Positions 23,090 to 47,735 of a stretch of 64,000 nt of DNA are shown here, piece after piece. The stretch comes from Methylobacteriaceae bacterium (GTDB taxonomy: Bacteria > Pseudomonadota > Alphaproteobacteria > Rhizobiales > Beijerinckiaceae), in NCBI GenBank assembly GCA_947444195.1, contig CANEZL010000001.1:62001-126000 (forward strand), given 5' to 3'. The translations under genes and the position numbers were made by a program. The notes below the pieces were generated by a model. The model did not search any database, was not told the origin of the DNA, and saw only the letters and a list, made by a program, of their open reading frames with translations. Position 1 is the first letter of the stretch, and each line of letters starts with the position of its first letter.

Positions 23090-23300
23090 CGCGGCTGCCG
23101 TCCCGCGGCCCGGTCGTCGCCTTCCCTGAAGCCCGCCTGAAGCCCGCCCGGGCGCGATCCGCGCCGGGCGTTTCCCCGCCCGTGCGCCGCGCGGAAGGCC
23201 CCGGCGGACCTGATTCGCTGCCTCGGAACAGGTTGTCCGCAACTCAACCAGGGCGATCAATCCAAAGAAATCACACCTCTAAGGTATGATCGATTTTGCG

Positions 23301-23328
23301 TTCTTTCTCATCGTGCATGAGTAAAGAA
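23301..23328. promoter_or_regulatory. AT-rich inverted repeat upstream of the MucR-like gene
   Basis: TTCTTTCTCAT (23301-23311) and ATGAG-T-AAAGAA (23317-23328) form an inverted repeat with one bulged T. It lies in a markedly AT-rich block (about 23260-23450) of the 474-bp gene-free spacer between argC and the MucR-like gene. Such AT-rich palindromic DNA is a plausible operator or extra terminator; which one is not decidable here. Confidence 0.35.
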
Positions 23329-23362
23329 AGCACAAAAATTATCCATTCGTCCGTTGATGCCA

Positions 23363-23373
23363 GGACAATGTTC
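23363..23373 (+). promoter_or_regulatory. Direct repeat GGACAATGTTC, copy 1
   Basis: The 11-mer GGACAATGTTC occurs exactly here and at 23461-23471, 98 bp apart, flanking the candidate promoter of the MucR-like gene. A role as paired operator sites is inferred. Confidence 0.35.
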
Positions 23374-23414
23374 CGTTTCGACAAGGAACGCCGCCGGAAA
23401 ATTCCAGATCAGGC

Positions 23415-23443
23415 TTGACCTCGTCAAAATCAGTCATTGTAAC
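23415..23443 (+). promoter_or_regulatory. Candidate sigma-70 promoter of the MucR-like gene
   Basis: TTGACC (23415-23420), a 17-bp spacer, and TGTAAC (23438-23443) give a reasonable housekeeping promoter 72 bp upstream of the ATG at 23515. Confidence 0.4.
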
Positions 23444-23460
23444 GATCAGAGCGGATGTGT

Positions 23461-23471
23461 GGACAATGTTC
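23461..23471 (+). promoter_or_regulatory. Direct repeat GGACAATGTTC, copy 2
   Basis: This is the second exact copy of the 11-mer at 23363-23373. It falls just downstream of the candidate -10 box, where a bound repressor would block initiation. Confidence 0.35.
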
Positions 23472-23514
23472 AGTCCGCGTGATCCGGCCTATTTGCAACG
23501 GTGACATCACAGAC

Positions 23515-24036
23515 ATGAGCGAGTTCGAGATCGACAGGGATGCCGTCGTGAGGATCACGGCAGATATCGTCGCGGCCTATGTGAGCAACAACCACGTCCA
23601 GGGCAACGAGCTGCCCAAGCTCCTCGCCGAGGTGCACGAGGCGATCCTGGGCCTGCACGCGCAGGGGGCCGAGCCGGCCGAGACGGGCCCGGCCAAGCCG
23701 ACGCCCCAGGAGATCAAGCGCTCGATCTCCTTCGACCATCTCATCAGCTTCGAGGACGGCAAGCCCTACAAGACCCTGCGCCGGCACCTGACCCTGCGCG
23801 GCCTCACGCCCGAGGCCTACCGCGCCAAGTGGGGCCTGCCGGTGGATTACCCGATGACGGCCAAGAGCTATTCCGAGCAGCGCTCGCAGCTCGCCCGGGC
23901 GCTCGGCCTCGGCCAGCAGCGCTGGGCCAACGGGAGCGCGACGGACGCGGCTCCCGAGCCTGAGGCCGAGGCTACGCCCGAGCCGGCGAGCCCCGAGAAG
24001 GCCCGCCGCCCAACCCGGCGCAAGGCGTCCGCCTGA
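23515..24036 (+). CDS. MucR/Ros-family transcriptional regulator
   Basis: The 173-residue protein belongs to the MucR/Ros family that controls exopolysaccharide, motility and cell-envelope genes in alphaproteobacteria. Residues 8-50 form the N-terminal oligomerisation region (ITADIVAAYVSNN). Residues 70-125 hold the Ros DNA-binding core: TLRRHLTLRGLTPEAYRAKW then GLPVDYPMTAKSYSEQRSQL. Where Ros has zinc-binding cysteines, this protein has Ser78 and Asp81, keeps His91 and lacks the second histidine, so it probably folds without zinc. A Pro/Glu-rich and basic C-terminal tail (138-173) is poorly conserved. It is monocistronic, with an AT-rich upstream region suggesting autoregulation. Confidence 0.87.
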   Translation: MSEFEIDRDAVVRITADIVAAYVSNNHVQGNELPKLLAEVHEAILGLHAQGAEPAETGPAKPTPQEIKRSISFDHLISFEDGKPYKTLRRHLTLRGLTPEAYRAKWGLPVDYPMTAKSYSEQRSQLARALGLGQQRWANGSATDAAPEPEAEATPEPASPEKARRPTRRKASA

Positions 24037-43202: not shown

Positions 43203-45551
43203 TCAGCCCTCGATCCGCGCGAAGTCGGCGACTTCCCGGGTGGCGGCGCGCAGGGCGTTGAGCAGGGCGAGGCGGTCGGCGCGCACGGCCGGGTCGGCGG
43301 CGTTCACGGTGACCTTCTCGAAGAAGGCGTCGACCGGGGCGCGCAGGCGCGAGAGGGCGCGCATCGCACCCTCGAAATCCTCGCTGGCCACCGCGGCCGA
43401 GGCTTCCGTGCGGGTGGTGGCCAGCGCCTCGGCGAGCGCCCGCTCCTCCGGCTCGCCGTCGGCGGCGATGCGGGCCCCGTCGGGCTCGGCCTCGTAGGCG
43501 CGCCCGTCCCGCTTCTCCTCGATGCGGAGGATGTTGGCCGCGCGCTTGTAGCCGGCGAGCAGGTTCCTGCCGTCGTCGGTCTCGAGGAAGCGGCCGAGCG
43601 CCTCGACGCGGCGGACCACCATCAGGAGGTCGTCCTGGCCGGGCAGGGCGAAGACCGCGTCGATCAGGTCGTGCCGGGCACCCTTGTCGCGGAGATAGAC
43701 TTTCAGGCGGTCTACGATGAATTTTTTTACGTCGTCTGCCCAGTAATCAATTCGGCCGCCGAACAGCGAGTCCGATATATCTAGCCGATTAATGCGAGAA
43801 TTTGTCTGCCGACCTGTACCAAAAGATGATACCCCTTTGGTTCGTTCAGCCGAAAGACCGAGCCAGTGCAGCGCCTCTAAAACAGTAGGTCTATCCTCTT
43901 CGGAAATTTCCTCCTCTTTTTCAATGAAATATATCAGTCTGTCAATTTCACTTTCATTAATTAGCGTGAAGTTTGGTTCATAAAATGAAGATCGTTTTCC
44001 GATTGAATCTGGCGTTTCAATTTCATAGTGCGGGATGTTGCCCAGATTATATCTTCTCTCGTTTTCGAGGAGCAGGCGGATTACGCCGAGCGCAGCTCGC
44101 CGCAATGCATAAGGATCTTTGCTTCCGGTTGGCTTCTCATCAATAGCCCAGAAGCCCAGTAGCATATCAATTTTGTCGGCCAACCCAATGGCGACTGATA
44201 CCGGGTCAGTTGGTACGCGATCATTTGGCCCGAGCGGCTTATAGTGTTCCTCGATCGCCGCAGCGACGCTCGGATGCTCGCCCTGTAGAGTCGCGTATTT
44301 TCGGCCCATCAGCCCCTGAAGCTCAGGGAATTCACCAACCATCTCGGTTACGAGGTCGGCCTTGGCCAGCCGCGCTGCGCGTTCGGCAAGATCTGGGTCG
44401 GCGCCGACCAGCGGTGCAATCTCGCGGGCGAGCGCCGTTATGCGCTGGACGCGTTCACCCTGTGTGCCGAGCTTCTCGTGGAAGACGATGCTGTCGAGCT
44501 TCAAGAGCCGGTCTTCGAGCCGCACCGCCTTGTCGGTCTCCCAGAAGAACTTCGCGTCGGAGAGCCGGGCGCGCACCACGCGCTGGTTGCCGGCGACGAT
44601 CGCCTGCCCGCCGTCGCTGGCCTCCAGGTTCGAGACCAGGATGAAGGCCGGGGCCAGCGCCTCGCCGCCCTTGCGCAGCACGAAGCATTTCTGGTTGGCG
44701 CGGATGGTGGCGCGCACCGCCTCGCCGGGGATGTCGAGGAAGGCCTCGTCGAAGGTGCCGAGCAGCGTCACCGGCCATTCCACCAGGCCGGCCACCTCCT
44801 CGAGCAGGCCCTCGTCCTCGACCAGTTCGAGGCCCTGCGCGAAGGCGAGGTCGCGGGCATCGTGCAGGATGATGTCCTTGCGCCGGTCGGCATCGAGCAC
44901 GACCTTGGCGCGCTCCAGGGCCTGCACGTAATCGTCGAAGCGGCGCACCTCGATGGCGCCGGGGGCCAGGAAGCGGTGGCCGTAGGTGGTGGTGCCGGCC
45001 GCGATTCCCTCCACCTCGAAGGGCACCACGTCCGGCGTCTCGGTCTCGGGGCCGAAGGTGGCCACGATGGATTGCAGGGGGCGCACCCAGCGCAGGGAGC
45101 CCGGCTGCGCGGAGGCCGCGCCCCAGCGCATGGATTTCGGCCAGGGGAAGGTGCGGATGATCTGCGGCAGGATCTCGGCCAGCACGTCCAGGGTCTCGCG
45201 GCCCGCCCGCTCGATCACCGCGAGGTAGAACTCGCCCTTCTTCGGGTCGGTGACGGTGCTCGCCTGATCGATGGAAGCGAGCCCCGCGCTCTTCAGGAAG
45301 CCCTGCACGGCGGCCTCCGGCGCGCCGACGCGCGGCCCCCGGCGCTCCTCGCGGACCGCCTCGCCGCGGGGGGGCAGGCCGGCGATGTGGAGGGCGAGCC
45401 GGCGCGGCGTCGCGAAGGCCTTGGCGCCCTCGTAGAGCAGGCCCCGCTCCACCAGCGCGTCGGTGACGAGCTTCCGCAGATCCTCGGCCGCGCGCCGCTG
45501 CATGCGGGCGGGGATCTCTTCGGAGCGCAGTTCGAGGAGGAGGTCAGGCAT
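43203..45551 (-). CDS. glyS: Glycyl-tRNA synthetase beta subunit, with AT-rich insert
   Basis: GlyS pairs with GlyQ to form the alpha2-beta2 synthetase that charges glycine tRNA. The 782-residue protein begins [20 protein letters not shown], a family start, and has [20 protein letters not shown]. The late motif is [20 protein letters not shown], before an anticodon-binding-like C-terminus. Between these two motifs lie about 115 residues where I would expect about 35; the excess ([14 protein letters not shown] to RIDYWAD) is unfamiliar. DNA from about 43700 to 44480 is far less GC-rich than its flanks (30 % in 43921-43980 by my count). The reading frame is intact. The ATG overlaps the end of fic by 8 bp. 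Confidence 0.93.
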
Positions 45552-46805: not shown

Positions 46806-47735
46806 TCAGGCGGCGAGGCCGCCCGCCTCCGTCTTCAGCCACGCGGCGCCGCAGGCCTTGGCGAGTTCGCGCACGCGCAGGATGTAGCTCTGCCGCTCCG
46901 TCACCGAGATCACGCCGCGGGCGTCGAGCAGGTTGAAGACGTGGCTCGCCTTGATGCACTGGTCGTAGGCGGGCTGCACCATGCGGTGGCGGGCGCCGTC
47001 AGTCTCCGGCTCGCCGGCAGCGAGGTAGGTCCGGCAGGCGCGCTCGGCATCCGTGAACTGCCGGAACAGCATCTCCGTGTCGGCGGCCTCGAAATTGTGG
47101 CGGGAATATTCCTGCTCGGCCTGGAGGAAGACATCGCCGTAGCTGACCCGGTCGGCGCCCGCGGCCCCGTTGAAGTTCAGGTCGTACACGTTCTCGACGC
47201 CCTGGACGTACATGGCCAGCCGCTCCAGCCCGTAGGTGAGCTCGCCGGCCACGGGGGCGCACTCGAAGCCGGCCACCTGCTGGAAATAGGTGAACTGGCT
47301 CACCTCCATGCCGTCGCACCAGCACTCCCAGCCGAGCCCCCAGGCCCCGAGGGTCGGGCTCTCCCAGTCGTCCTCCACGAAGCGGATGTCGTGGAGGGCG
47401 AGGTCGACGCCGATGGCGGCGAGCGATTCGAGGTAGAGCTCCTGCAGGTTCGGCGGGTTCGGCTTCAGGATGACCTGGAACTGGTAATAGTGCTGCAGCC
47501 GGTTGGGGTTCTCGCCGTAGCGCCCGTCCTTCGGGCGCCGGGAGGGCTGCACGTAGGCCGCCTTCCAGGGCCTGGGGCCGAGGGCCCGCAGGGTCGTGGC
47601 CGGATGGAACGTCCCCGCGCCCACCTCCATGTCGTAGGGCTGCAGGATGACGCAGCCCTTGGCCGCCCAGAAGCGCTGAAGCGTCAGGATCAGCCCCTGG
47701 AACGAGCGGGTAGGCGCGAGATCGGCGTCGGACAT
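46806..47735 (-). CDS. glyQ: Glycyl-tRNA synthetase alpha subunit
   Basis: GlyQ carries the active site for glycyl-adenylate formation. The 309-residue protein has [20 protein letters not shown], then [39 protein letters not shown] and FNVYDLN-type text, here [20 protein letters not shown], follow. It ends with [18 protein letters not shown]. It precedes the fic gene by 89 bp on the minus strand. In most bacteria glyS follows glyQ directly. Confidence 0.96.

Follow-up and report, generated by a model that had tools for sequence, protein, structure and literature searches.

A hypervariable module slot in the HD domain of the glycyl-tRNA synthetase β subunit, found from an AT-rich tract in an alphaproteobacterial glyS

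In type I restriction specificity (S) subunits and other modular allelic proteins, unrelated modules are swapped between conserved flanks and shared between species, and in Rickettsia palindromic elements are found as in-frame inserts in genes; translation, for its part, is acted upon by HipA-type and Fic-type toxins. The glyS slot described here is like the type I S subunits in module swapping between conserved flanks and in sharing between species, but it lies in a single-copy essential translation enzyme for which no target recognition is known. As with the Rickettsia elements, an AT-rich insert lies in frame within a housekeeping gene of an alphaproteobacterium, whereas the GlyS module is not repeated in the genome, shows no shared sequence and keeps a fixed position. 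Toxins of the HipA and Fic types would be plausible agents of pressure on a synthetase, although none is shown here to act on GlyS. Escherichia coli GlyS (PDB 7YSE, 7EIV) resembles the GlyS encoded in the window (the whole 64-kb stretch of DNA analyzed) over the entire protein outside the module, where its chain leaves 18 residues unaligned against 99 in the window protein. No earlier report of a hypervariable GlyS was found among the matches listed in the open-access literature, subscription papers being outside the scope of the search.

The glyS gene and its AT-rich tract

The features on which the analysis rests are as follows.

43203..45551, minus strand: glyS, glycyl-tRNA synthetase (GlyRS) β subunit, 782 aa (TIGR00211, E 2e-225; PF02092, E 1.5e-181; DALR_1, E 1.4e-8)
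43650..43721, minus strand: downstream conserved anchor, residues 611–634 (columns of 77 GlyS; alignment with the first 29 relatives; 92–98% identity directly past the module in 6 of 7 pairs)
43692..44471, minus strand: AT-rich tract, residues ~361–620, comprising the module and an upstream and a short downstream halo of A/T-ending codons (GC3 and GC profiles)
43722..44078, minus strand: hypervariable module of 119 aa, residues 492–610 (comparison of 106 genus genomes)
44079..44156, minus strand: upstream conserved anchor, residues 466–491 (invariant or near-invariant columns in 77 GlyS; E. coli tRNA contacts, PMC9908026)
45544..46725, minus strand: gene with a Fic domain, located between glyQ and glyS and sharing 8 bp with the glyS start chosen here (PF13784, E 1.4e-22; PF02661, E 4.4e-19)
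46806..47735, minus strand: glyQ, GlyRS α subunit (PF02091, E 1.5e-141)

The glyS start (MPDLLLE) was picked by homology, the mechanical open reading frame extending to 45647. Scoring 750 bits against the TIGR00211 cut-off of 300, the product belongs to the GlyRS β subunits, and it matches E. coli GlyS in sequence (E 1.6e-110) and, by Foldseek, in structure (E 1.4e-41); the predicted model (mean pLDDT 90.2), the Foldseek match to 7yse and the DALR_1 match together identify a GlyS fold with an anticodon-binding domain. A genome search found glyS as a single copy in its own genome, with its partner glyQ nearby.

An earlier note on this DNA had described an AT-rich drop of about 780 bp within glyS, with the frame kept open, about 80 extra residues and A/T-ending codons on either side. 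Its base counts proved exact (GC of 30.0% at 43921–43980, 38.3% at 43981–44040 and 73.3% at 43561–43620), the GC3 profile is low over residues ~361–620 (43692–44471) and reveals the A/T-ending codons flanking the module, and the frame is open through the AT-rich stretch of the glyS reading frame; the figure of ~80 extra residues is also correct, because the shortest congeneric forms have 33–39 aa in place of the 119 aa found here. Third-position GC, mostly 0.85–1.0 in glyS, falls to 0.25–0.75 within the tract, whose edge is sharp on the 3′ side and gradual on the 5′ side. No other part of the 64-kb window reaches as low a GC over 360 bp (0.425, against a median of 0.719 and a next lowest value of 0.489 elsewhere, in 10-bp steps); a second AT-rich spot lies at 23171–23640, with a minimum of 48.9% GC over 360 bp. 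The module, bounded by the anchors RRAALGVI and DRLKV, replaces the usual short segment and is not added beside it.

The HD domain has been assigned to residues 341–540 of the E. coli enzyme (PMC8464048), in which the start of helix H19 binds the tRNA acceptor stem and Arg531 also touches it (PMC9908026). The E. coli chain aligns to residue 501 and resumes at 520, and, as this break falls within 341–540, the alignment places the module in the HD domain, between H19 and the stretch with Arg531.

A variable slot in the genus and in other Alphaproteobacteria

The genus was taken as Methylobacterium with Methylorubrum, and glyS was found in 110 of the 111 genomes searched; the one genome lacking a match (G074, 95% complete) perhaps has an assembly gap. 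Among the matches listed, only one genome (G089) besides the window's own gave an end-to-end match, and in the others most first pieces stop near residue 500 and second pieces begin near 602. In the 106 genomes counted, including the window's and leaving out G025 (interrupted by N), G090 (at a contig edge), G103 (piece with a broken frame) and G037 (a fragment), GlyS is conserved outside the slot, whereas the slot itself ranges from 33 to 159 aa (median 49) and falls into 18 sequence groups, 14 of them single-member. (In the G025 assembly, locus L083, the run of N follows glyS residue 470, ~20 codons ahead of the module.) Longer modules are more AT-rich (length versus GC, rho −0.78), and the long AT-rich ones, that of the window included, are mutually unrelated at the sensitivity used; a clade of 20 congeners (L089–L108), unlike the rest of the genus, carries short GC-rich modules only. 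The result that would have spoken against the earlier note, the same low-GC insert in all close relatives, was not seen: the insert occurs in none of the 105 other congeners analyzed, the nearest of which is 85.1% identical in its flanks. The tract belongs to a slot in the HD domain of GlyRS β that is hypervariable, and represents one of its alleles, not a one-off; the earlier note has nothing on this hypervariability, either within the genus or elsewhere in the Alphaproteobacteria.

The broader sample comprised 80 named loci (the best 80 of 586, an uneven sample) and further loci at the order and class levels, and the same variable slot is present across the alphaproteobacterial loci sampled, the correlation of length with GC being −0.48 (rho) in 69 named loci, with 11 of the 80 left out as failing the anchor pattern. 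When trimmed modules were compared all against all at E 1e-3, leaving out cores of <25 aa, 83 groups were obtained among 136 of 200, L215 having been dropped, and 99 groups among 153 in a set that includes a few modules from other classes. In those other classes of the phylum the slot is short, measuring 36–55 aa in 16 of 18 GlyS, the other two being mis-anchored. The loci mis-anchored as short are L258, L259 and L265 in the class set and L287 and L297 in the phylum set, their true extent coming from the raw segments; L271, L289 and L296 were left out of the length measurement, and L277 in the class set belongs to the window's own order.

Eleven pairs of loci with a significant module match were ranked by the relatedness of their flanks, ranks that partly reflect the presence of 105 congeners in the set, and seven of them stand at the 120th place or lower of 199. 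Thus L156 and L161 (a Beijerinckiaceae MAG and a proteobacterial MAG) match in module at E 6e-22 with 157 loci closer by flank, of which one shares the module; L123 and L176 (Pseudovibrio) match at E 1.4e-17 with 53 closer, and L144 and L177 (Aminobacter) at E 2e-10 with 161 closer, none of which shares the module. L144/L200 (Bartonella) is also one of the seven flank-distant pairs, and L162/L170, L137/L206 and L077/L160 are flank-distant with module matches of only E 8e-5 to 1e-3. For the other four pairs no transfer is needed, since their flanks rank 1st to 5th (L032/L152, L156/L172, L192/L217) or 19th (L177/L200). Outside the window's order, L264 has the module of L192 (a Phyllobacteriaceae MAG; E 2e-9). 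For modules other than the window's, therefore, the same module is found in distant lineages, in discord with the flanks.

Block replacement, turnover and constraint

Within the genus, conserved flanks enclose unrelated interiors in close relatives other than the window's host: flanks are 94.9% identical in L027 and L051, with modules of 91 versus 33 aa, and 94.1% identical in L020 and L034, with modules of 125 versus 36 aa, and further pairs with 92.5–94% identical flanks likewise carry unrelated modules. In six of seven such pairs, identity is 92–98% immediately downstream of the module (60-column windows), the exception being L017/L030 with 77–83% across 180 columns, and in six of seven the upstream fall lies mainly within the last 180 columns, that of L069/L088 beginning ~420 columns from the module. 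As a control, 192 kb of the genomes of L027 and L051 was aligned at the DNA level; of the 38 breaks that it showed, five fell within conserved frames, and the glyS break was the largest of these (317 versus 143 bp). One other is comparable (103 versus 205 bp) and lies in a frame that on our reading resembles a DNA ligase linker, and the remaining three are small or one-sided.

On a tree of approximately the first 350 glyS codons (966 columns, 106 rows), with 24 module states in which short forms were lumped as one, a minimum of 39 changes of module state was counted. The count is rough and may be too high, since resolution is incomplete (37 of the 103 inner branches are starred and 39 are open) and recombination may have affected the N-terminal part as well. 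On the same tree, the AT-rich versus GC-rich state changes 16 times, and the same module group recurs in separate branches. No module variation was seen among near-identical glyS in the tiny sample of two pairs examined (two S. meliloti strains; M. bullatum versus L045, 98.3%). Block replacement by recombination is well supported; some of the apparent unrelatedness may reflect rapid divergence of a single ancestral segment.

The modules are coding and maintained as protein. The glyS frame is open in all 67 modules of ≥80 aa, whereas each of the five other frames is stopped in 53–66 of the 67, the extraction procedure having excluded broken-frame loci, of which one piece (G103) was dropped. In all eight selected groups, pN/pS is 0.28–0.64 in the modules versus 0.09–0.24 in the flanks, values that, on sequence grounds, place the modules under purifying selection; as pN/pS is below 1, positive selection inside the modules is not shown. 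The pS of the modules also exceeds that of the flanks in 8 of 8 groups (barely in one), as would be expected if modules are older than, or from outside, the host species.

Competing explanations and possible drivers

The whole is best explained, with a probability that we put at roughly 0.7, by an exchangeable in-frame HD-domain module replaced as a block; GlyRS-binding inhibitors would be the likeliest driver, though at less than even odds. The slot would hold this module just past the helix that, in E. coli, contacts the tRNA acceptor stem through its initial part, and recombination between the conserved anchors would produce the block pattern seen in the alignments. Incoming modules would often derive from AT-rich sources outside the species and would thereafter be retained as working protein; gene transfer agents, described as widely distributed in Alphaproteobacteria (PMC9836097), would suit as a candidate carrier. 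We tentatively propose that the module forms an exposed helical arm deciding the docking of a GlyRS-binding inhibitor of phage, toxin-system or rival origin, so that rare modules would be favored and old ones would recur. It is conceivable, and more speculative, that alphaproteobacterial GlyRS is a battlefield on which the HD module serves as a diversifying shield or bait against phage or rival GlyRS-binding proteins, exchanged across species and orders like an immunity allele. No GlyRS inhibitor, module donor or carrier was found in this analysis. Of 109 phage-resistant mutants of avian E. coli, 4 have changes in glyS (PMC8711792); this is a weak lead, coming from one table row, with many other genes changed and a short segment in E. 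coli. An indel upstream of glyS is described in Vibrio coevolved with phage (PMC8521149) and is likewise a weak lead for phage pressure on glyS. The toxins AtaT2 (PMC7470980) and FaRel2 (PMC11559606) are described in the respective reports as acting on tRNA-Gly, not on GlyS.

The earlier note had read the tract as a piece of glyS imported from a low-GC relative. The appearance of a recombinant patch carrying a foreign module is supported, and the GC3 tract with its open frame and AT-ending halo would suit such an event, but as a full account a one-off import is contradicted and highly improbable: the slot varies throughout the genus, and searches of the family, the order, phages and plasmids produced no low-GC donor. 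Among 397 family genomes there was one weak match, obtained with a query that included the conserved edges, to L032 (G442, another genus; 34%, E 1.2e-4), whose module is shared with Bosea sp. 47.2.35 (L152); kinship of the two modules is tentative, since the window's module, trimmed to its core, stays alone in the all-against-all clustering, with no significant relative. No donor was found in 397 genomes of the order, in phages or in viral contigs searched with the wider segment, and plasmids gave matches at E≥2 only. The matches that the wider segment gave in phages and plasmids turned out to be ordinary GlyS, some apparently in bacterial records, and five end-to-end matches in the order that looked like module relatives were unrelated modules bridged by the aligner. 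Over residues 451–500 the median nucleotide identity of this glyS to the genus is 0.69 versus 0.68 to outsiders, which is weak evidence for an outside donor, because in congeners generally the genus signal in the protein segment beside the module is almost nil (median difference 0.01). The window's own replacement is undatable, as the nearest flanks (L003) are just 85.1% identical. An AT-rich insert within a conserved essential gene could call to mind an in-frame selfish element (intein, intron or palindromic repeat), which we find scarcely credible here. There is no second copy of the module in its own genome (next-best match E 1.7) and no Rfam match, and a search of 70 modules (the window's and 69 others, one per group among 109 loci with modules of ≥58 aa) in Pfam, PHROGs and NCBIfam gave no convincing family, three single matches at E 0.007–0.009 being read as chance; these searches thus yielded neither multiple copies nor a known family. 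When one module group was searched against 297 genomes, its three strong matches were all in glyS, and three at E 0.002–0.007 elsewhere were read as chance.

A strong rival, albeit one we consider unlikely, is that the spot merely tolerates any in-frame sequence, foreign or random AT-rich DNA gathering there without benefit. The slot indeed sits between two helices, AlphaFold confidence in the window protein is low at residues 501–600 (block means 44–78), the 70 modules hold no convincing known domain, and constraint is weaker in the modules than in the flanks; yet pN/pS is below 1 in all eight selected groups, module pS lies above flank pS, distant lineages carry the same module, and GlyS of other classes is without the length variation. 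In addition, the L177 module, the sole module with relatives modelled (four in the alignment), folds confidently into two long helices forming a helical hairpin (block means 67–93). This hairpin would also fit a lineage-specific docking or regulatory arm whose diversity tracks changing partners, as would the top Foldseek match, titled BUK-SYGB integrative model and taken for a GlyS complex by its title only, and the presence of a Fic gene at glyS in some genomes. We regard such an arm as improbable, since changing partners would seem unlikely to produce as many as 18 groups within a single genus, and the Fic gene accompanies long and short modules alike.

Exchange of whole modules is the reading that we prefer, pressure from GlyRS-binding inhibitors being our best guess at its cause. 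Synthetases serve as slow, conserved markers, whereas this slot can be wholly different between species with 95% identical flanks, and its diversity suggests strong, hitherto unrecognized selection on translation in Alphaproteobacteria. The slot gives a direct route to seek the selecting agent, and it warns against the use of whole glyS for phylogeny or typing in this class.

The Fic gene is patchily present: loci with ≥80% identity number six in the 110 genus genomes, the window's included, five being whole (one with an internal stop) and one a fragment. All six adjoin glyS, three at a distance of ~600 bp, whereas six other Fic matches at E 1e-60 (36–39% identity) lie on contigs other than the glyS contig; a Bosea MAG (L160) has a like gene in the same place. 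Occurring with long and short modules alike, the gene is not tied to the module, and its product may possibly be a regulator or toxin of GlyRS. The contents of the glyQ–glyS interval differ between loci and were read as including DUF559-like, PIN-like and Fic genes, the family test having been made on the window's Fic gene only; among the loci in which glyQ was located by motif (87 of 133, within L001–L225), the spacing of the two genes ranges from overlapping to 1.9 kb apart. In Sphingomonas parapaucimobilis YK209 (L302), glyQ and a glyS with a long module lie on a 197-kb plasmid.
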